Shown piece after piece: positions 1-29,186 of a DNA stretch of 64,000 bases; position 1 is the stretch's first letter, and each line of letters opens with the position of its first letter. Origin of the DNA: Crossaster papposus (Eukaryota > Echinodermata > Asteroidea > Velatida > Solasteridae); the NCBI GenBank assembly GCA_037893245.1, contig JBAIAA010000653.1, forward strand, positions 868,001 through 932,000. Direction: 5' to 3'. Both the position numbers and the translations under genes were made by a program. The notes beneath the pieces are model-generated. The model did no database searches. It was given only the letters and a program-made list of their open reading frames with translations, and was not told the DNA's origin.

Positions 1-1
1 C

Positions 2-565
2 TTCCAATACCTCCATAAAACATCATCCCATCCACCCCATACTTTCAAAGCGTTCATATACGGAGAAACACTCCGCTACGCTAGAAACACCAACAACTCG
101 GATGATTTCCACAACAAAGTCAAAATATTCTCAGAGAAACTAACCAAAAGAGGTTACAATTCCAATGAAATCAAAATAGCGACAACCAAAGTCTCACATG
201 CCGACCGATCGAGACTAATACACAACACAAAGGACGGAGAAAAAATAAAACAAACTCCACTTGTCTTCACTACCACCTACAACCCAGCCATAAATCACGG
301 TGATATACATCGAGCAATAAACAGACACTGGAACTTAATCGAAGGCAATCAAATACTCTCGGAACTTTTTCCGAAACCTCCATTTATTGCCTTCAAAAAA
401 GCCCAAAACATTCGGGAGAAACTAATAAGAGCTAAACTACCACAGCAGGTACAAAAACTCGAACCACTCCCAACAGACTCTGGCTTTTTCGAACAACCAT
501 TTGAACCAGACGAAACCCTCAACATATTGCTCTCCTTACTGGAGGAACAATCTGAAACCGACTAA
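2..565 (+). CDS. PLE reverse transcriptase, C-terminal part
   Basis: This open frame enters from the window edge and ends at TAA 563-565. It matches the last 188 residues of the copy C reverse transcriptase, beginning after the YRDD catalytic motif. It includes the SSHP segment near its start, the GETLRYAR segment, and the terminal stretch ending AKL that PLE reverse transcriptases carry after the thumb. Canonical PLEs continue from there into a Cys-rich linker and a GIY-YIG nuclease, but this frame stops about 40 residues later. Whether the missing upstream part is intact cannot be seen. Confidence 0.85.
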   Translation, partial: FQYLHKTSSHPPHTFKAFIYGETLRYARNTNNSDDFHNKVKIFSEKLTKRGYNSNEIKIATTKVSHADRSRLIHNTKDGEKIKQTPLVFTTTYNPAINHGDIHRAINRHWNLIEGNQILSELFPKPPFIAFKKAQNIREKLIRAKLPQQVQKLEPLPTDSGFFEQPFEPDETLNILLSLLEEQSETD

Positions 566-940
566 CAAACATATGGCTTAAACCACAAACTTACATGATT
601 GGAATATACCCAATCCCAACCACAACCTCTCTGCGAGTCAGCCCATCGATTCTTTTTTTGAATCACCCATTTGCAACTGACGAGTACCATGGCTAGGTAC
701 GAAAGCATGCTATTGCTATCAAGAGGATTTGCAAACATAATCCTCTGCTCGCTCCCTTAATCACATTTGATTATCCATCCAACTGAAGTCATTCAATCTC
801 ATTATGTCCACCCAATATACATTTATTTTGGACATAACCGGCAAAGACTATATCATGCTTAAAATCCATTTTAAGCCATAACAAGTCAAGAGAAAGGGTG
901 TGTCACTGAATGGGATAGTGCCATCTCATTTCTAAAATCT
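566..940 (+). other. PLE 3' noncoding region, copy A
   Basis: These 375 bases hold no ORF but many inverted repeats in series. There is a 5-bp stem with a T7 loop (GATTC/GAATC, about 645-665), the hammerhead ribozyme (673-716), a 7-bp hairpin (723-729 with 739-745), an 8-bp inverted repeat TTATGTCC/GGACATAA (about 802-837) and a 9-bp near-palindrome GCTTAAAAT-CC-ATTTTAAGC (857-876). The same structures occur in copies B (3542-3916) and C (7799-8170). Structured 3' RNA of this kind could serve as the template recognition site for the reverse transcriptase; that role is inferred. Confidence 0.7.
673..716 (+). ncRNA. Hammerhead ribozyme (type I), PLE copy A
   Basis: All invariant core positions are present. 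CTGACGA lies at 677-683. Stem II is GTACC 684-688 paired with GGTAC 696-700 around loop ATGGCTA. GAA 701-703 follows, then A704 pairing with T711, and the cleavage-site base A712. Stem III is the very short palindrome A-GC-AT-GC-T. Stem I pairs GCAA 673-676 with TTGC 713-716. Predicted self-cleavage is after 712. Short stem III hammerheads are known from PLEs and related retroelements, where the near-absent stem III favours dimeric activity. Activity here is inferred from the conserved core. Confidence 0.85.
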
Positions 941-951
941 TATTTCTCAAA

Positions 952-1593
952 ATGTCTAAACTCAGCAAATCATCATCTAAGAAAAGCAAGTCCCGCCGGT
1001 CGCCACCATCACCCACCAGTTCAACTTCATCCAGCATCCCATGCGGACAACGGTCTCCCTTTCCAAGCGACGATGAATCACTTCTCCTCTCCTGCGAACT
1101 AGATTTAGGCCCATCTATATCAACAACCAAACCAACCACGATCTCGCACAAACTCTCCGAGGAAAAATTCAAACAGGTGAAATTCCTAGCAGAAAAAGTC
1201 AACACTTTGACAACTGCCAAGGAACACATCACCCGCCAAATACGGCTCCTTTCCCGGTCAATCGAGACGAACACACCACCATCCTATATCACGGTAACCA
1301 TACGGCCACCACACCCACATCGATCTCTGAAATTTCAGACTTCGTTCCAGGATCGTTGGAGCAATCTCCAGAGAAGGACATCGTTGCTGTTCACAAGAAT
1401 CACGCTGGAGGAGTACAAACACCAACTGCCAATCACCGAGGACCAGCTCACCAACGCCATACGCTCAGCACAAGAAAAACTTGCTGAAGATTTCCAGGGT
1501 CTAGACCACTCTACCGCTCAAAAGCTCCTGAGCTTCTTCACAAGACCCAGCTATCTACCCAACAAAGGCATCAAGAGAAAACGACAACCCTAA
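952..1593 (+). CDS. PLE ORF1 protein, function unknown
   Basis: The product is 213 aa with an ATG start. The first 20 residues are Ser/Lys/Arg-rich, and a Ser/Pro-rich stretch follows to about 45. An acidic patch lies near 40-50. Residues about 70-105 are helical and Lys/Glu/Leu-rich with coiled-coil potential. A middle region with PPHPHRS follows, and the C-terminus ends in a basic cluster (KGIKRKRQP) resembling a nuclear localisation signal. I recognise no enzyme domain. Some endonuclease-lacking PLEs have an upstream ORF, and a nucleic-acid-binding or multimerising role is plausible but inferred. The stop is followed 29 nt later by a histone-like stem-loop. Confidence 0.8.
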   Translation: MSKLSKSSSKKSKSRRSPPSPTSSTSSSIPCGQRSPFPSDDESLLLSCELDLGPSISTTKPTTISHKLSEEKFKQVKFLAEKVNTLTTAKEHITRQIRLLSRSIETNTPPSYITVTIRPPHPHRSLKFQTSFQDRWSNLQRRTSLLFTRITLEEYKHQLPITEDQLTNAIRSAQEKLAEDFQGLDHSTAQKLLSFFTRPSYLPNKGIKRKRQP

Positions 1594-1622
1594 GTCGATC
1601 TCTAAACACTACAAAACCAAAC

Positions 1623-1660
1623 AGTCCTTCTCAGGACTACCACACCTTCTCAAAAGAGAG
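1623..1660 (+). terminator. Histone-type mRNA 3' end signal after PLE ORF1 (copy B)
   Basis: A perfect 6-bp stem AGTCCT/AGGACT (1623-1628 with 1633-1638) encloses a TCTC loop. It is followed by ACCACA and, 13 nt after the stem, by the purine element AAAAGAGAG (1652-1660). It is preceded by AAAACCAAAC. The H1 genes in this window have the same plan: AAAACCAAAAC, 6-bp stem, TTTC loop, then AAAAGAGA 11 nt after the stem. Stop-to-stem spacing is also alike (29 versus 32 nt). Stem size, G at stem position 2, and U at loop positions 1 and 3 fit stem-loop binding protein and U7 snRNA rules. Use in 3' end cleavage is inferred. AATAAA motifs at 1688 and 1701 offer an alternative poly(A) route. Confidence 0.65.
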
Positions 1661-1682
1661 AAATCCGTAACTTTGCCCCTAC

Positions 1683-1689
1683 TATAAAA
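1683..1689 (+). promoter_or_regulatory. TATA-like box upstream of PLE ORF2 (copy B)
   Basis: TATAAAA lies 73 nt before the ORF2 ATG at 1762 and 23 nt after the histone-like purine element. It could place a start site near 1714 and give ORF2 its own transcript. The stretch is AT-rich and also contains AATAAA, so the motif may equally be part of a poly(A) region. Confidence 0.35.
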
Positions 1690-1761
1690 TAAAGATAATA
1701 AATAAACTGGAATATAACTCATCCCATATTATCTGTTATATCCAAACCATAAATCTTTACC

Positions 1762-3541
1762 ATGGCAAAAAGGAAATTCAACCAAAAAACAAAGAGATCA
1801 CTTAGCCAATCGAAATCTCACCGTTTCTCGAACAAATGCAAATCGAAAACCAAACGAGCTAACTCCAATCATTTGCGCTCACTAGCAGAACAAAGTAATT
1901 CCTTCATAACAAACCTATCCAAAGCAACACTATCGCAAACCGAAATAATTGCTTTAGGAAAAGGTTTAAACTTTGTACCTACTCCTGCTAAACCAAACCG
2001 CAAAACACTTGTAAGTGAAATAAATACCTTCAATCGAAGACTAAGAATTACATTCTTAATGCAAAATAAACACTCCAAAAACCATCCCTTCAAATCACCA
2101 TCTAACTGGCAACCCATATCATCCCCTAGTGCAACACTAGAAGAATACTTGGAAGCCACTAAATTCGAACTGGCCCACATCAGGCTAAGGAATCGGCAAA
2201 AAAACATAACCACGCAGGATTTATCCGCCATAAACAAACTCAAAAACAATCCCGAAAATACACAAAACGCCACCACCGGCAGAACCTTTTGTTGGACGTC
2301 CAATTATAAGTGGTTGTACTAGCCCTACGGCAAAAATTTCAGAATACATAGACTACTTCCTTCTTCCCATAGCAACCGCGCAACCCACATATGTCCGCGA
2401 CACAGCAGACATTTTGCGCAAACTGGAAGAAAGACAATTTTCACAAAATGTCCTAATCACAAGTATAGATGTCGTTTCTATGTACACAAATATCCGACAG
2501 ACGGAAGCAATCCAATGTGTTTGCAATGCCCTCGAAAACACAAACCATAACTATCAAATCACAAAACCACCTTCAGCCTACATCCAAAAACTTCTGGAAC
2601 TCATCCTTGGTCGCAACTGCTTCCAATTCGGAAATAAGTTCTTTCTCCAGAAAATTGGTTGTGCAATGGGCTCCACAGCAAGCCCTGAAATTTGTGACAT
2701 CACCCTACACGACTTCGAAAACAAAATAATCCAAAAAGCGAATAACATCCTTACATGGTGGCGCTATAGAGACGACATATTGGTCATCTACAACGGAACT
2801 CTAAACGAATTCCAAAATCTCATTACAGAGATAAACCAGATGCACCCAACTCTAAAATTCACATACGAAGCCTCTGAATCATCAATCAACTACCTTGACT
2901 TAACCATATTTAAAGGAGACCGTTTCCATAAAACAGGAATCCTAGACACCAAAGTCTACACAAAACCAACGGAAACCTTCCAATACCTCCATAAAACATC
3001 ATCCCATCCACCCCATACTTTCAAAGCGTTCATATACGGAGAAACACTCCGCTACGCTAGAAACACCAACAACCCGGATGATTTCCACAACAAAGTCAAA
3101 ATATTCTCAGAGAAACTAACCAAAAGAGGTTACAATTCCAATGAAATCAAAATAGCGACAACCAAAGTCTCACATGCCGACCGATCGAGACTAATACACA
3201 ACACAAAGGACGGAGAAAAAATAAAACAAACTCCACTTGTCTTCACTACCACCTACAACCCAGCCATAAATCACGGTGATATACATCGAGCAATAAACAG
3301 ACACTGGAACTTAATCGAAGGCAATCAAATACTCTCGGAACTTTTTCCGAAACCTCCATTTATTGCCTTCAAAAAAGCCCAAAACATTCGGGAGAAACTA
3401 ATAAGAGCTAAACTACCACAGCAGGTACAAAAACTCGAACCACTCCCAACAGACTCTGGCTTTTTCGAACAACCATTTGAACCAGACGAAACCCTCAACA
3501 TATTGCTCTCCTTACTGGAGGAACAATCTGAAACCGACTAA
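1762..3541 (+). pseudogene. PLE reverse transcriptase ORF2, copy B (internal deletion)
   Basis: The frame opens at ATG 1762 with a Lys/Arg-rich N-terminus that is intact here, unlike in copy C. Compared with copy C, 257 bp are missing between 2253 and 2254 (copy C about 6254-6510), which removes about 86 codons up to the LPKIHK motif and shifts the frame, so translation stops at 2320-2322. The original frame resumes and is open to TAA 3541. It keeps RPIISG, the SIDVVSMYTNI motif A, GCAMGS motif B and the YRDD catalytic motif. Short CC/CCC homology at the junction suggests end joining. No GIY-YIG nuclease follows. This copy could not make active enzyme. Confidence 0.88.
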
Positions 3542-3916
3542 CAAACATATGGCTTAAACCACAAACTTACATGATTGGAATATACCCAATCCCAACCACA
3601 ACCTCTCTGCGAGTCAGCCCATCGATTCTTTTTTTGAATCACCCATTTGCAACTGACGAGTACCATGGCTAGGTACGAAAGCATGCTATTGCTATCAAGA
3701 GGATTTGCAAACATAATCCTCTGCTCGCTCCCTTAATCACATTTGATTATCCATCCAACTGAAGTCATTCAATCTCATTATGTCCACCCAATATACATTT
3801 ATTTTGGACATAACCGGCAAAGACTATATCATGCTTAAAATCCATTTTAAGCCATAACAAGTCAAGAGAAAGGGTGTGTCACTGAATGGGATAGTGCCAT
3901 CTCATTTCTAAAATCT
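3542..3916 (+). other. PLE 3' noncoding region, copy B
   Basis: This region matches the copy A 3' region, with the same hairpins and one hammerhead ribozyme. It ends in aaaatct at 3916, after which the sequence differs from the A-B junction. Confidence 0.7.
3649..3692 (+). ncRNA. Hammerhead ribozyme (type I), PLE copy B
   Basis: The core CTGACGA (3653-3659), 5-bp stem II, GAAA and short palindromic stem III are unchanged from copy A. Predicted cleavage is after 3688. Confidence 0.85.
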
Positions 3917-4207
3917 ATGTTTAATACTCCTTATTCTCATACAGAGATATTGTGGGTCGATGGCAACCAAAAACTGCCCGAGAATACCGTTCTTGAGTAA
4001 CAAGCGAGGTATCTTCAGGTTGCACCCATCTCTAACCATACGTACTTCTTAGTACATCCATAGACTTGTGAAAATCAGTCTGCCACCCACGAGACAAAAA
4101 CACCACACCTATTCGGAAAACCGACAATCATATTTCCGCATACGGAAAATATAACATGTATTTGTGACTATCCACAAAAAATAAACACCATTTATCTGGT
4201 ATCTACG

Positions 4208-4464
4208 GTAAAAAGACGCATAAATTATCCACATACGGATAAACTTAACCCCCTTTTTACACTATACAACTCACACAAATAAACAAATACCCACGGATTT
4301 AACCCAAGAACTTCATCTTTATTTTGTTACCACACAAATAAACAAACATCATGTTATTTCTGATGTTTTCAGTAAAAAGACGCATAAATTATCCACAAAC
4401 GGAGAAACCCTACCCTTTTTACACTATACAAATCAAAACAAAACAAATACCCACATATTTAACC
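4208..4464 (+). repeat. Direct repeat pair in PLE upstream region
   Basis: Two copies of a roughly 95-bp segment, 4208-4304 and 4372-4464, share a start at gtaaaaagacgcataaatta. They also share downstream blocks (ctttttacactatacaa, acaaatacccac, atttaacc) with a few substitutions and indels. Subterminal direct repeats are common in retroelement 5' regions; a role as regulatory repeats is inferred. Confidence 0.75.
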
Positions 4465-4908
4465 ACCAAAAATTTGGCCTCCCAAAAAAACTAGAAATAA
4501 ATCTCTACATCAAATGGTACAACAAAAATAAAACCCATAATGGAATAAAAAAAGTACCATCTCCACATAAAATATACAATCGTATAAACAAATTAAAGAA
4601 ACTAATCTACGGAACACAACGTGTTTCTCCAACACCGCACACGGTGGGAATATAGTTTCTTACACAAACAACTACCAAATAAAAGAGAATAAAAATATCT
4701 AAAAGCCCACATCATTTTCAACTATTTTCCAACAAGGAAAATAGCTAAAAACGGCTTTTCAAACTAAAAAAGAAACACACCTTGGCCCAAAAATCCACTA
4801 CCCAAGTTTTTCCGCACCACTACCACCTCATTGAACAATGACTATTCCCAACACCATGCAAACTACGGCTCGAATCATATTGTTCATCCTACGTCCGCAA
4901 ACCGTGCG

Positions 4909-4914
4909 TATATA
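4909..4914 (+). promoter_or_regulatory. TATA-like box for PLE ORF1 transcript (copy C)
   Basis: TATATA lies 42 nt before the ORF1 ATG. The base 31 nt after its first T is 4940, exactly the point where copies B and C start to share sequence. That agreement supports a transcription start at about 4940 and explains the copy B 5' end as a copy of that transcript. Confidence 0.5.
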
Positions 4915-4950
4915 CTCCGAGAAAATACCCACAAACCATTATTTCTCAAA

Positions 4951-5592
4951 ATGTCTAAACTCAGCAAATCATCATCTAAGAAAAGCAAGTCCCGCCGGTC
5001 GCCACCATCACCCACCAGTTCAACTTCATCCAGCATCCCATGCGGACAACGGTCTCCCTTTCCAAGCGACGATGAATCACTTCTCCTCTCCTGCGAACTA
5101 GATTTAGGCCCATCTATATCAACAACCAAACCAACCACGATCTCGCACAAACTCTCCGAGGAAAAATTCAAACAGGTGAAATTCCTAGCAGAAAAAGTCA
5201 ACACTTTGACAACTGCCAAGGAACACATCACCCGCCAAATACGGCTCCTTTCCCGGTCAATCGAGACGAACACACCACCATCCTATATCACGGTAACCAT
5301 ACGGCCACCACACCCACATCGATCTCTGAAATTTCAGACTTCGTTCCAGGATCGTTGGAGCAATCTCCAGAGAAGGACATCGTTACTGTTCACAAGAATC
5401 ACGCTGGAGGAGTACAAACACCAACTGCCAATCACCGAGGACCAGCTCACCAACGCCATACGCTCAGCACAAGAAAAACTTGCTGAAGATTTCCAGGGTC
5501 TAGACCACTCTACCGCTCAAAAACTCCTGAGCTTCTTCACAAGACCCAGCTATCTACCCAACAAAGGCATCAAGAGAAAACGACAACCCTAA
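4951..5592 (+). CDS. PLE ORF1 protein, function unknown
   Basis: The 213-aa product is the same as that of copy B; only silent changes were noticed, such as those near 5385 and 5521. ATG 4951 is chosen because it is shared with copy B and lies just after the predicted transcription start. The frame is open further upstream to a TTG at 4831, but that stretch is absent from copy B and crosses the TATATA box. A basic Ser-rich N-terminus, a possible coiled coil and a C-terminal basic cluster are visible. Identity between copies in a long ORF suggests recent spread or constraint. Confidence 0.8.
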   Translation: MSKLSKSSSKKSKSRRSPPSPTSSTSSSIPCGQRSPFPSDDESLLLSCELDLGPSISTTKPTTISHKLSEEKFKQVKFLAEKVNTLTTAKEHITRQIRLLSRSIETNTPPSYITVTIRPPHPHRSLKFQTSFQDRWSNLQRRTSLLFTRITLEEYKHQLPITEDQLTNAIRSAQEKLAEDFQGLDHSTAQKLLSFFTRPSYLPNKGIKRKRQP

Positions 5593-5621
5593 GTCGATCT
5601 CTAAACACTACAAAACCAAAC

Positions 5622-5659
5622 AGTCCTTCTCAGGACTACCACACCTTCTCAAAAGAGAG
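5622..5659 (+). terminator. Histone-type mRNA 3' end signal after PLE ORF1 (copy C)
   Basis: The stem AGTCCT/AGGACT (5622-5627 with 5632-5637), loop TCTC and AAAAGAGAG (5651-5659) are identical to copy B. The signal begins 29 nt after the ORF1 stop. Confidence 0.65.
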
Positions 5660-5681
5660 AAATCCGTAACTTTGCCCCTAC

Positions 5682-5688
5682 TATAAAA
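5682..5688 (+). promoter_or_regulatory. TATA-like box upstream of PLE ORF2 (copy C)
   Basis: TATAAAA lies 73 nt before the ORF2 ATG at 5761, in the same arrangement as copy B. Confidence 0.35.
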
Positions 5689-5760
5689 TAAAGATAATAA
5701 ATAAACTGGAATATAACTCATCCCATATTATCTGTTATATCCAAACCATAAATCTTTACC

Positions 5761-7798
5761 ATGGCAAAAAGGAAATTCAACCAAAAAAACAAAGAGATCA
5801 CTTAGCCAATCAAAATCTCACCGTTTCTCGAACAAATGCAAATCGAAAACCAAACGAGCTAACTCCAATCATTTGCGCTCACTAGCAGAACAAAGTAATT
5901 CCTTCATAACAAACCTATCCAAAGCAACACTATCGCAAACCGAAATAATTGCTTTAGGAAAAGGTTTAAACTTTGTACCTACTCCTGCTAAACCAAACCG
6001 CAAAACACTTGTAAGTGACATAAATACCTTCAATCGAAGACTAAGAATTACATTCTTAATGCGAAATAAACACTCCAAAAACCATCCCTTCAAATCACCA
6101 TCTAACTGGCAACCCATATCATCCCCTAGTGCAACACTAGAAGAATACTTGGAAGCCACTAAATTCGAACTGGCCCACATCAGGCTAAGGAATCGGCAAA
6201 AAAACATAACCACGCAGGATTTATCCGCCATAAACAAACTCAAAAACAATCCTGACATCGTAGTCAAACCATACGACAAAGGCAGAGGCATTTGCATCAT
6301 GAACCACTCAGATTATCTACAAGTGGGTTACCAACATCTTGAGTCCCATCATTATACCCAACTGGACCAAGATATTACCCCACAAACTATTACGATGGTT
6401 CACAACACACTCATAGAAATGAGAAACAACAAACACATCGACAACGATACTCTGAAATACCTCGACCCACTTCCACAAAACTGTCAATGTCCAACCATGT
6501 ATTTTCTCCCGAAAATACACAAAACGCCACCACCGGCAGAACCTTTTGTTGGACGTCCAATTATAAGTGGTTGTACTAGCCCTACGGCAAAAATTTCAGA
6601 ATACATAGACTACTTCCTTCTTCCCATAGCAACCGCGCAACCCACATATGTCCGCGACACAGCAGACATTTTGCGCAAACTGGAAGAAAGACAATTTTCA
6701 CAAAATGTCCTAATCACAAGTATAGATGTCGTTTCTATGTACACAAATATCCGACAGACGGAAGCAATCCAATGTGTTTGCAATGCCCTCGAAAACACAA
6801 ACCATAACTATCAAATCACAAAACCACCTTCAGCCTACATCCAAAAACTTCTGGAACTCATCCTTGGTCGCAACTGCTTCCAATTCGGAAATAAGTTCTT
6901 TCTCCAGAAAATTGGTTGTGCAATGGGCTCCACAGCAAGCCCTGAAATTTGTGACATCACCCTACACGACTTCGAAAACAAAATAATCCAAAAAGCGAAT
7001 AACATCCTTACATGGTGGCGCTATAGAGACGACATATTGGTCATCTACAACGGAACTCTAAACGAATTCCAAAATCTCATTACAGAGATAAACCAGATGC
7101 ACCCAACTCTAAAATTCACATACGAAGCCTCTGAATCATCAATCAACTACCTTGACTTAACCATATTTAAAGGAGACCGTTTCCATAAAACAGGAATCCT
7201 AGACACCAAAGTCTACACAAAACCAACGGAAACCTTCCAATACCTCCATAAAACATCATCCCATCCACCCCATACTTTCAAAGCGTTCATATACGGAGAA
7301 ACACTCCGCTACGCTAGAAACACCAACAACCCGGATGATTTCCACAACAAAGTCAAAATATTCTCAGAGAAACTAACCAAAAGAGGTTACAATTCCAATG
7401 AAATCAAAATAGCGACAACCAAAGTCTCACATGCCGACCGATCGAGACTAATACACAACACAAAGGACGGAGAAAAAATAAAACAAACTCCACTTGTCTT
7501 CACTACCACCTACAACCCAGCCATAAATCACGGTGATATACATCGAGCAATAAACAGACACTGGAACTTAATCGAAGGCAATCAAATACTCTCGGAACTT
7601 TTTCCGAAACCTCCATTTATTGCCTTCAAAAAAGCCCAAAACATTCGGGAGAAACTAATAAGAGCTAAACTACCACAGCAGGTACAAAAACTCGAACCAC
7701 TCCCAACAGACTCTGGCTTTTTCGAACAACCATTTGAACCAGACGAAACCCTCAACATATTGCTCTCCTTACTGGAGGAACAATCTGAAACCGACTAA
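5761..7798 (+). pseudogene. PLE reverse transcriptase ORF2, copy C (N-terminal frameshift)
   Basis: The ATG at 5761 matches the copy B start, but the A run at 5783-5789 has seven A's instead of six, so the frame meets TAG after 14 codons. The rest is open from about 5873 to TAA 7798 (641 residues; the undisturbed frame would be about 678). Counted from 5873, the motifs are GLNFVPTP 31-38, LPKIHK 212-217, RPIISG 228-233, motif A with catalytic Asp 283-293, GCAMGS 348-353, YRDD 384-387, SSHP 462-465, and the AKL segment ending at 600. These are diagnostic of PLE reverse transcriptases, which are related to telomerase. The chain ends 41 residues later with no GIY-YIG domain. The extra A could also be a homopolymer sequencing error. 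Confidence 0.9.
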
Positions 7799-8170
7799 CA
7801 AACATATGGCTTAAACCACAAACTTACATGATTGGAATATACCCAATCCCAACCACAACCTCTCTGCGAGTCAGCCCATCGATTCTTTTTTTGAATCACC
7901 CATTTGCAACTGACGAGTACCATGGCTAGGTACGAAAGCATGCTATTGCTATCAAGAGGATTTGCAAACATAATCCTCTGCTCGCTCCCTTAATCACATT
8001 TGATTATCCATCCAACTGAAGTCATTCAATCTCATTATGTCCACCCAATATACATTTATTTTGGACATAACCGGCAAAGACTATATCATGCTTAAAATCC
8101 ATTTTAAGCCATAACAAGTCAAGAGAAAGGGTGTGTCACTGAATGGGATAGTGCCATCTCATTTCTAAAA
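7799..8170 (+). other. PLE 3' noncoding region, copy C
   Basis: It carries the same hairpin series as copies A and B but ends at tttctaaaa, without the final tct seen in A and B, and joins the H1 spacer. Confidence 0.7.
7906..7949 (+). ncRNA. Hammerhead ribozyme (type I), PLE copy C
   Basis: The core CTGACGA begins at 7910, and stem II, GAAA and the palindromic stem III are intact. Predicted cleavage is after 7945. Confidence 0.85.
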
Positions 8171-8320
8171 ACAGGAAAACGGCACCCATCTAGTAATAAT
8201 TGTTTGCAATGTTTCGTGGCATGTTTTAACGGTGGTGAGTTAATCTATTGAGATTTCCTGCCAACATTATGAAGAGAAAATTACCCAGAAGCCGATGAAC
8301 TACGTTTTGTACTATACAAA

Positions 8321-8335
8321 TATATATATATAAAA
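8321..8335 (+). promoter_or_regulatory. Distal TATA-like tract of the H1 unit
   Basis: An alternating TA tract ends in TAAAA, about 425 nt before the H1 ATG. Its length varies by two bases between units, as expected of a microsatellite. It resembles a strong TATA box but is far from the gene and absent from the three 1418-bp units, so it is not essential for a complete H1 unit. It may be a distal promoter or simply a TA repeat. Confidence 0.3.
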
Positions 8336-8352
8336 CAATAGTGAAATCAGCA

Positions 8353-8367
8353 GGAATGGAAAACACA
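8353..8367 (+). promoter_or_regulatory. Distal H1 box
   Basis: GGAATGG followed by A and AAACACA. AAACACA is the H1-specific promoter element known from vertebrate and sea urchin H1 genes. This copy is 380-394 nt before the ATG and repeats the proximal motif 190 bp downstream. It is lost in the 1418-bp units. Confidence 0.45.
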
Positions 8368-8542
8368 AAGTTATACCGGCAGCTACGTCGTACCAACTCG
8401 TTCTAAATTCAGTTATATCAACTGCCGTTTACAAATCGTGTACCGTTTGATATCAGCGGAAAGACCAAATTACGTACTAGCTGCTTGACTCACTTTTAAA
8501 ATCTAAAGCTACGTCTAAAAGTAACAAAACATTAAATCAGTT

Positions 8543-8557
8543 GGAATGGCAAACACA
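8543..8557 (+). promoter_or_regulatory. Proximal H1 box
   Basis: GGAATGG, C, then AAACACA at 8551-8557, about 73 nt before a TATA-like element. This matches the usual H1 promoter plan of H1 box near -100 and TATA near -30. It is kept in nearly all units, including those that lack the distal box; copy 27 has AAACATA instead. Confidence 0.6.
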
Positions 8558-8623
8558 CAATTACAAGAAAGTGACGAGAAATGGTCCATCGCTTCTCGGT
8601 TGGTTGGGCAGCATGAAAGGGCA

Positions 8624-8629
8624 TTATAC
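8624..8629 (+). promoter_or_regulatory. Proximal TATA-like element of H1 gene
   Basis: TTATAC, varying to TTATAA in copies 7, 8, 9 and 23 and TTGTAC in copy 2. A start about 30 nt downstream, near 8655, would give a 5' leader of about 90 nt. It would also leave the upstream in-frame ATG at 8657 too close to the cap to be used. Confidence 0.45.
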
Positions 8630-8746
8630 TGTTGCGCGTCCGCAGCGTAAAGTCAAATGGGCGGACACAATTTTCTACCAAATCATTACTCGCCTTCCAG
8701 TTCTAGGATTCGCTCGATTGTTAACAAGAAATCTCGTAACCAAATA

Positions 8747-9316
8747 ATGGCCTCCTCTACTGCTGTTTCGAAAGCCAAATGTCCGTCCATTCTCCATTTG
8801 GTGAAGGTGGCCATCGCCTCTCTAGGGGGCAAAGGTGGCGCCTCGTCACAAGCCATCAAAAAGTACATCCAGGAAAATTGCGGCGTAGACATCGAGAAGA
8901 AGGCCAGAACCATCCGCAATGCTCTGAACTCTGGCGTAGACAAGTGTGAACTTATCCGCACCAAGGGTAAGGGGGCCGCGGGCACGTTCAAACTTGACAG
9001 CACGAAGGAGAAGGTTGCTGCGAAGGTTGCCAAGGAGAAGGAGAGAGTCAAGGCCAAGAAAGAGCGGGAAAATATTGCAGAGAAAGCCAAGAAAGCCAAG
9101 ATCGCCGAGAAAGCAAAGAAAGCCAAGATCGCGGAGAAATCGAAGAAAGCCAAGCCATCCAAGAAAGTGAAGAAACCCGCTCTAAAGAAGACCGCAAAGA
9201 AGGCCGCCAAGAAAACTCCCTCTAAGCCAGCTACAGCCAAATCAACCAAAAAGCCAGCTAGCAAAAACACATCGGGCAAGCAGAAGAAAGTGCCGGCCAA
9301 GCCATCAAAGAAATAA
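8747..9316 (+). CDS. H1: Linker histone H1, copy 1
   Basis: This 189-aa linker histone binds the nucleosome dyad and linker DNA and compacts chromatin in the nucleus. Residues 1-12 are a short N-terminal tail. Residues about 13-83 form the winged-helix H1/H5 globular domain (AIKKYI at 36-41, GKGAAGTFKL at 74-83). Residues 84-189 are the Lys/Ala/Pro-rich tail with three 9-residue repeats IAEKAKKAK (110-136; the third has Ser) and KTPSK-type sites. Three cysteines (12, 45, 67) are unusual for H1. The start at 8747 (aaataATGG) is preferred over the in-frame ATG at 8657, which is lost in copies 5, 6, 15 and 22. This copy differs from the array consensus by P166S. A histone stem-loop follows 32 nt after the stop. 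Confidence 0.96.
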   Translation: MASSTAVSKAKCPSILHLVKVAIASLGGKGGASSQAIKKYIQENCGVDIEKKARTIRNALNSGVDKCELIRTKGKGAAGTFKLDSTKEKVAAKVAKEKERVKAKKERENIAEKAKKAKIAEKAKKAKIAEKSKKAKPSKKVKKPALKKTAKKAAKKTPSKPATAKSTKKPASKNTSGKQKKVPAKPSKK

Positions 9317-9348
9317 CTGCTCTTCCCGGCACCACCCAAAACCAAAAC

Positions 9349-9364
9349 GGCTCTTTTCAGAGCC
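9349..9364 (+). terminator. Histone mRNA 3' stem-loop (copy 1; positions of all copies listed)
   Basis: The 6-bp stem GGCTCT/AGAGCC with loop TTTC is the stem-loop binding protein site of replication-dependent histone mRNAs. The purine element AAAAGAGA (9376-9383) lies 11 nt downstream, where U7 snRNA pairs. It marks these genes as S-phase, non-polyadenylated histone genes. Other 16-base stem-loops start at 11175, 12998, 14825, 17438, 20051, 21875, 23699, 25523, 27347, 29171, 30589, 32413, 34237, 36061, 37885, 39709, 41533, 42951, 45563, 47387, 48805, 50629, 52453, 54276, 56101, 57918, 59735, 61552 and 63820. Copies 5, 7 and 22 have none. Confidence 0.95.
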
Positions 9365-9383
9365 ACAACATTAACAAAAGAGA

Positions 9384-10572
9384 TATTCCGTTGTGTTGTT
9401 TATGAGTAATGGGCAATTGTTTTAATCTATTGAGCGTTTGATTAATGATGTGTGGTGTAGTGTTTTTAACCCTGTTACTGAAAAAAACAAAACACAAACA
9501 AACACTGCGGAATGGGAAACAAGAAACAGAACAGATTAAGGCGAAGGTGCAAAATCAGTGTGAATTGAACATAAACTGGAAAATGATGATAAAATCAACT
9601 TTAATTGTTTGTGTGTCTTAAGCCTCACGGAGAGTCGCAACTATTTTTACCTAGATTGTTTGAAGTTGGGGCATTGATCACTAAGCGCATCCTTGATGGG
9701 GAACGTGTTTGACGTTGCATCATCGGGCGTCGATGAACTGGTGATGGCGCTCTGTTAGCAGCGCCGCTGCAACGTTGAGGGCGCTACATAACTGTTACGG
9801 AACCGTCAAATAATTATTAATAATAATTGTAAAAGAGCATGGATTTTGGCGACTTTAACCCAATTTTGATGATAGTGAAAACACAGTAGAGGAAATGAGG
9901 AGTTAATGGCTGCAAGCTTTAAAACAAAGAATTATGTTGAGCACGTAGTATTAGTTCACTCGAATCCACTCCAACACCAAACCGGTGCGCCAAAACAGGA
10001 AAACGGCGCCCATCTAGTAATAATTGTTTGCAATGTTTCGTGGCATGTTTTAACGGTGGTGAGTTAATCTATTGAGATTTCCTGCCAACATTATGAAGAG
10101 AAAATTACCCAGAAGCCGATGAACTACGTTTTGTACTATACAAATATATATATATATAAAACAATAGTGAAATCAGCAGGAATGGAAAACACAAAGTTAT
10201 ACCGGCAGCTACGTCGTACCAACTCGTTCTAAATTCAGTTATATCAACTGCCGTTTACAAATCGTGTACCGTTTGATATCAGCGGAAAGACCAAATTACG
10301 TACTAGCTGCTTGACTCACTTTTAAAATCTAAAGCTACGTCTAAAAGTAACAAAACATTAAATCAGTTGGAATGGCAAACACACAATTACAAGAAAGTGA
10401 CGAGAAATGGTCCATCGCTTCTCGGTTGGTTGGGCAGCATGAAAGGGCATTGTACTGTTGCGCGTCCGCAGCGTAAATTCAAATGGGCGGACACAATTTT
10501 CTACCAAATCATTACTCGCCTTCCAGTTCTAGGATTCGCTCGATTGTTAACAAGAAATCTCGTAACCAAATA
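9384..10572 (+). other. H1 intergenic spacer and promoter (representative full spacer)
   Basis: The spacer has no ORF with homology to any gene and no RNA gene that I recognise. From left to right it holds an A-rich tract of variable length (about 9480), nested inverted repeats (9708-9810), an AT-rich block aataattattaataataatt, the ACAGGAAAACGG site where several rearrangements join (about 9996), the TA tract, the two H1 boxes and the proximal TATA-like element. A 13-mer TTAATCTATTGAG occurs twice (9422 and 10064). The other full spacers have the same content with point differences. Confidence 0.75.
9708..9810 (+). repeat. Nested inverted repeats in H1 spacer
   Basis: The arms are TTTGACG 9708-9714 with CGTCAAA 9804-9810, ACGTTGCA 9712-9719 with TGCAACGT 9768-9775, and GGCGCT 9746-9751 with AGCGCC 9760-9765. 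The outer and middle arms overlap, so they would form alternative structures. The segment is more GC-rich than the rest of the spacer and is kept in every full unit. It could be an old terminal-inverted-repeat insertion or a structured regulatory site. Confidence 0.5.
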
Positions 10573-29170: not shown

Positions 29171-29186
29171 GGCTTATTTCAGAGCC
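29171..29186 (+). terminator. Damaged histone stem-loop of copy 13
   Basis: The 5' arm reads GGCTTA instead of GGCTCT, so the fifth pair becomes U-G and the loop-closing pair an A-A mismatch. Only four Watson-Crick pairs remain. The same variant is found after copies 20 and 29. Confidence 0.85.

Follow-up and report, generated by a model that had tools for sequence, protein, structure and literature searches.

A putative histone-type mRNA 3' processing signal behind ORF1 of a two-ORF reverse-transcriptase element next to a histone H1 array in Crossaster papposus

The DNA analysed here is a window of 64,000 nucleotides from Crossaster papposus. Its positions 1–8170 consist of three copies (A, B and C) of one element, as delimited by BLAST within the window, and an array of histone H1 genes lies directly downstream. 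All three copies are on the plus strand. Copy A is represented by its 3' part (1–939, the end being approximate) and abuts copy B (about 940–3916) head to tail, while copy C occupies 4939–8170. In BLAST alignments, copies B and C are 99.5% identical over 1314 nt; copy B is without about 257 nt of ORF2 that are present in copy C, and the 1664 nt that follow are 100% identical. Between these two copies, positions 3917–4938 have no other BLAST match in the window except an internal repeat. Copy C is thus 3232 nt long as aligned, or 4254 nt long when this interval is counted with it. The interval holds an 82% direct repeat (4173–4304 and 4333–4464) together with a short protein-like frame, and it may represent foreign DNA or else a promoter region that belongs to copy C. 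At the other side, copy C closes with 3' non-coding sequence (7799–8170), which meets an H1 repeat unit around 8168–8171; this junction falls in a run of A, and there is an A-rich overlap at this point. The left edge of the insertion is beyond the window.

The element has two open reading frames, both on the plus strand. ORF1, of 213 amino acids, is intact in copy B (952–1593) and in copy C (4951–5592), and the two differences between these copies are both synonymous. The protein of copy B is basic (pI about 10.2), with an N-terminus rich in Ser and Lys. In Pfam and NCBIfam, ORF1 had no match with an E-value under 0.4 and 0.1, respectively; a structure prediction from the single sequence contained a long helix at residues 70–107, with a mean pLDDT of 45 that is too poor to use. 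ORF2, which encodes the reverse transcriptase, is disrupted in both copies. In copy B the frame that opens ORF2 (1762–2322) is interrupted where about 257 nt have been deleted in comparison with copy C, and in copy C the frame is open over 6059–7798 and shifted near its start. ORF2 of copy C matches Pfam RVT_1 at E 9.7e-10. Against NCBIfam it gave reverse-transcriptase matches below the cut-off only, and against solved structures none at 0.01, with one retron reverse transcriptase at E 0.26. Several sub-cut-off matches of ORF2 were set aside (RVT_thumb at E 0.018, a group II intron reverse transcriptase and Drt3a), as was CdiA_C at E 0.034 in the ORF2 start of copy B, which lies below its curated cut-off.

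ORF2 contains the motifs LPKIHK, DVVSMYTN, YRDD and KPTETFQYLH, which we take to be Penelope-like in appearance, and the filing of the element as Penelope-like, which rests on these motifs, is tentative. In organisation it resembles the endonuclease-deficient members of that class. Scanned at E up to 1, neither ORF1 nor the ORF2 of copy C nor the start of ORF2 in copy B gave a GIY-YIG domain, and the stretch from ORF2 to the end of copy C has no ATG-started ORF of at least 90 amino acids. Two ORFs are part of the published description of endonuclease-deficient Penelope-like elements, and terminal repeats of Penelope-like elements can bear hammerhead motifs (PMC6431247). The element shares with Athena, its relatives and the Terminons, as that text presents them, the two ORFs with the reverse transcriptase last, the lack of a detected GIY-YIG domain, the head-to-tail copies and a hammerhead-like core in the 3' non-coding end (PMC6431247). 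The class length of 4–6 kb is to be set against the 3232 nt of copy C, or the 4254 nt obtained with 3917–4938 included. The hammerhead-like core, CTGACGAG-stem-CGAAA, recurs in each of the three copies, within their 3' non-coding ends (677–704, 3653–3680 and 7910–7937). In the form CTGACGA...GAAA it starts at 677, 3653 and 7910, and the first of these folds into several helices with no clean cleavage site assignable; Rfam returned no hammerhead match in the element. Matches to SNORA9 (E 1.7) and JPX_2 (E 0.84) were far under their Rfam cut-offs and were discarded. Unlike Athena and the Terminons, the element shows no telomeric repeats at the three 3' junctions that were read, and copy C joins an H1 unit instead. 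Attachment to telomeric repeats is a trait of the telomeric subset of endonuclease-deficient Penelope-like elements only.

The downstream genes encode histone H1, with Pfam Linker_histone matching at E 8.4e-19 in the one that was scanned. Their array (8541–63471) comprises 33 copies of a 300-nt stretch, and the 30 listed show 98–100% identity. The spacing between copies is mainly 1824 nt, with some shorter distances near 789 and 1418 nt. Within three substitutions of the H1-type stem-loop there are 30 sites, of which 27 are intact. An altered form, GGCTTATTTCAGAGCC, occurs at 29171, 41533 and 56101, with its top pair broken, the preceding ORF open and the purine element retained; the view of these three as decayed copies was dropped, given their open ORFs and conserved purine element. 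No U7 match was found in the window at Rfam gathering cut-offs.

The feature of interest lies in the spacer between ORF1 and ORF2 of the element. The original prediction described a histone-type stem-loop, ACCACA and a purine element after ORF1, and all three can be read back at 1623–1660 in copy B and 5622–5659 in copy C, which are both of the copies that cover the site. In copy B, the ORF1 stop codon TAA (1591–1593) is followed at a distance of 29 nt by the stem-loop, AGTCCT-TCTC-AGGACT, a 16-nt structure of the Histone3 type (Rfam RF00032) at 1623–1638 on the plus strand. Its stem has six base pairs, every one of them standard (AGTCCT, 1623–1628, with AGGACT, 1633–1638), and encloses a 4-nt loop, TCTC (1629–1632). 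It is preceded by an A-rich flank, AAAACCAAAC (1613–1622), and is followed directly by ACCACA (1639–1644), just 3' of which cleavage would be expected. Further along lies a purine element of the histone downstream type, CAAAAGAGAG (1651–1660), which contains an AAAGAG core and of which AAAAGAGAG forms positions 1652–1660. Copy C has the same stem-loop at 5622–5637 and the purine element at 5650–5659, with the AAAAGAGAG part at 5651–5659, again on the plus strand. Both element copies have 12 nt between the stem and CAAAAGAGA. When 1594–1672 is folded alone the stem-loop forms, with a z-score of -2.2. The same fold contains a second small hairpin, UUCUC with GAGAA, which engages part of the purine element and could hinder access of U7 to it; the folded H1 stretch is without a hairpin of this type. 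Copies B and C have zero differences across 1594–1761, so the pair is uninformative about selection acting on the signal.

How does this arrangement compare with the histone genes next to it? The distances that had been claimed from the stop codon to the stem, 29 nt in the element against 32 nt in H1, hold, with 32 nt in 27 of 27 intact H1 stem-loops. The further pair of distances, from the stem to the purines (13 against 11 nt), also agrees when counted from the A-run, and becomes 12 against 10 nt when counted from CAAAAGAGA; the value of 10 nt is found at all 27 intact H1 sites and at the 3 altered ones. The same CAAAAGAGA is identical in the element and in the 27 intact H1 3' ends, and also in the 3 altered ones. 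Such sharing is expected if one U7 serves both, and it fits a single host U7 RNA acting on element and H1 messages, with common descent being unnecessary. The H1 genes of the window thus resemble the element in CAAAAGAGA, in spacing and in an A-rich flank, and differ from it in 7 of the 16 bases of stem and loop. These seven differences amount to three compensated pairs and one loop base. In an alignment of the element with the two intact H1 stem-loop types (26 and 1 sites), all six pairs are kept in the three rows and three of the six have changed on both sides. This alignment uses one of the two element sites, which are identical, and two of the 27 intact H1 sites, with the 3 altered sites excluded; having only three distinct rows, it reached a compensated-pair count that was equalled in 18 of 500 shuffles.

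These comparisons bear on whether the signal could be an unused relic, that is, the 3' end of a host histone gene that was acquired together with ORF1 or next to it and has kept an intact look owing to the young age of the copies. Copies B and C are indeed recent, at 99.5% over 1314 nt, and the downstream flanks of H1 and element are alike when compared at fixed position (a score equalled or exceeded in 4 of 5000 shuffles), with TCCGT beyond the purine element in common. Yet the upstream flank lacks significance, its score being equalled or exceeded in 252 of 5000 shuffles, and an unrelated stretch between the copies, 4316–4331, outscores the true site on the downstream flank (28 against 25). 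Aligned as whole regions, element and H1 score 48 over 65 columns. Taken together, the similarity of the flanks is equivocal. The stem argues against a relic, since all three pairs that differ from H1 are compensated and a decaying H1-like end would not do so, although this argument is limited in that the donor could have been a core histone gene with a different stem. We consider the relic an unlikely explanation. The original prediction had cautioned that direct capture from this H1 array was not shown, and with 7 of 16 stem and loop bases differing and the flanks equivocal, that caution stands.

The sequence on either side of the signal suggests where transcripts might begin and end. Just past it, TATAAAA overlaps three AATAAA hexamers (1683–1706, plus strand), forming a candidate ORF2 promoter, back-up poly(A) signals or both. 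The hexamers that the original prediction placed at 1688 and 1701 are present, with another at 1697; they start 28, 37 and 41 nt 3' of the purine element, and their equivalents in copy C are at 5687, 5696 and 5700. On the plus strand of copy C there is only one TATAWA, at 5682, between the signal and ORF2. A candidate ORF1 promoter, TATATA, lies at 4909–4914 on the plus strand. Because the similarity of copies B and C starts (4939) 30 nt after its first base, transcription may start at about 4939, and the ORF1 transcript may accordingly begin near 4938/4939 with a leader of about 12 nt. Copy B extends from this presumed start, across the signal, as far as the element's 3' end, so that at least the RNA behind copy B escaped cutting there. 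Moreover, with AATAAA downstream of the purine element, ordinary polyadenylation is possible.

Both points lend some weight to a different role for the stem-loop, namely as a handle for SLBP without cleavage, serving translation, export or S-phase stability in a polyadenylated or full-length RNA: three AATAAA are close downstream, and copy B spans the site. On the other hand, such a handle would not need a purine element at H1-like spacing, yet one is present and equals that of H1 over 9 bases. The hexamers themselves are frequent by composition, as 3 of the 6 in copy C sit inside ORF2. A handle of this kind seems to us distinctly improbable.

The statistical support for the signal comes from the Histone3 model and from a rule-based search. 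Both element sites match RF00032 over the full model length at 31.1 bits, E = 8.7e-6, a value that refers to 9.5 kb and 4227 families and was obtained in an E-value-threshold scan of 1–9500; rescaled roughly to a search of 2 Gb with a single family, it becomes about 2e-4. The alignment has one base inserted 3' of the stem, and the first pair of the element stem is A-U where the model has G-C. The search rule called for a stem arm R-G-Y-Y-C-U, a loop U-Y-U-H and Watson–Crick pairing throughout and, composed with the site in view, is biased toward it. It gave 29 matches on the plus strand of the window (27 H1 and 2 element sites), no match on the minus strand and 0 matches in 1000 dinucleotide shuffles of 1–8170 (16.3 Mb). 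Counting every hairpin of this geometry (stem of 6 bp, loop of 4 nt), the plus strand of 1–8170 contains 13; the two that conform to the histone rule, at 1623 and 5622, are copies of a single site. Within the 168-nt spacer between ORF1 and ORF2, the stem-loop is the sole hairpin of these dimensions. That a chance hairpin happened to stand before a chance purine stretch draws some support from the A-rich sequence, in which a purine stretch alone is not rare, and from the 13 comparable hairpins, but is very unlikely in view of the E-value, position and strand of the element sites, with only 1623 and 5622 of the 13 fitting the rule and none in the shuffles.

The remaining reading is that the element carries a working counterpart of the end of a replication-dependent histone mRNA. 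In animals, the stem-loop is bound by SLBP and the downstream element base-pairs with the U7 snRNP, and CPSF73 cleaves the RNA in between (PMC7026596). The same source describes the U7 snRNP as metazoan-specific and reports that, in mouse extracts, altering the AAAGAG core so as to block pairing with the CUCUUU of U7 severely inhibited processing (PMC7026596). The H1 genes of the window, with their Histone3 stem-loops and U7-type elements, accordingly point to an animal as the probable host. The element has the corresponding parts of RF00032: a 6-bp stem, a TCTC loop, an A-rich 5' flank, ACCACA and a purine element with the AAAGAG core, all on the coding strand and 3' of a stop codon. It departs from the histone mRNA end in standing behind a retroelement ORF, in its A-U first pair, in scoring below the gathering cut-off and in having a run of AATAAA within 41 nt downstream. 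The proposal that this is a histone-type 3' processing signal is well supported by the stem-loop and the U7-type purine element, and by their order, strand and spacing. The likeliest interpretation, to which we give better than even odds, is that the ORF1 mRNA is processed by SLBP and U7 and is a non-polyadenylated S-phase message. In its favour are the intact ORF1 in both copies, the placement of the signal on the correct strand, its H1-like spacings, the three compensated pairs relative to the H1 stem, the CAAAAGAGA shared with H1 and the two TATA motifs, one just 3' of the signal and one 30 nt ahead of the point where copies B and C become alike. For the message itself, lack of poly(A) and S-phase expression can reasonably be inferred from the signal.

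Judged from sequence, the layout looks like a pair of small transcription units, and the histone-type signal closes the first of them. ORF1 would form a separate, histone-style transcription unit with a start probably near 4938. Host SLBP would bind the stem-loop behind ORF1, the U7 snRNP would pair with the purine element and the RNA would be cut just beyond ACCACA. The product would be a short ORF1 message, with a stem-loop end in place of poly(A), that accumulates mainly in S phase. Some transcripts would read through the signal and provide the full-length template, and ORF2 could be expressed either from this read-through RNA or separately, with the TATAAAA just past the signal as a second promoter. 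The sequence itself establishes the order, strand and spacing of the signal and its match to Histone3, whereas factor binding, RNA cutting, timing in the cell cycle, read-through and the two promoters are predicted. If the signal were leaky, so that ORF1 message was the main product and full-length template a lesser one, a histone-type end could be reconciled with the span of copy B and with the AATAAA downstream. A broader version of this proposal is that the element has taken over the histone 3' end pathway, with ORF1 made only in S phase from a non-polyadenylated message processed by SLBP and U7. The leak would then set how much ORF1 message there is per full-length template, and the element would time itself to DNA replication through RNA processing alone. 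We put this forward tentatively, as somewhat short of an even chance.

Searches for relatives covered viral contigs with ORF2, a slice of ORF2, ORF1 and H1, and prokaryote genome contigs with the ORF2 slice and H1. Protein-guided scans seeded on short peptide patterns found no relatives in either set, an absence that says little where collections are mostly non-eukaryotic and seeding relies on short peptides. Stem-loop patterns gave 0 matches in the viral contigs. A literature survey by titles and the starts of abstracts, with key Penelope papers outside its coverage, yielded no precedent for a retroelement with a histone-type 3' end. The signal after ORF1 also sets the element apart from Athena and the Terminons, whose descriptions in the available part of PMC6431247 do not include one. 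The nearest study found concerns siRNAs from retrotransposons in Drosophila and, in the part available, names Symplekin and CPSF73 (PMC5392987).

If the signal is used, a mobile element would be a natural non-histone substrate of the histone 3' end pathway, and the expression of a retroelement would be tied to S phase and DNA replication through RNA processing. The signal would also offer the element a simple means of switching from a short ORF1 message to a full-length template and back. In practical terms, RNA data selected for poly(A) would miss the ORF1 of such elements. At the level of annotation, the element sites, at 31.1 bits, fall under the Histone3 gathering cut-off of 34 and are overlooked by a default Rfam scan, which in this window lists the 27 H1 sites only, each at a score of 38.
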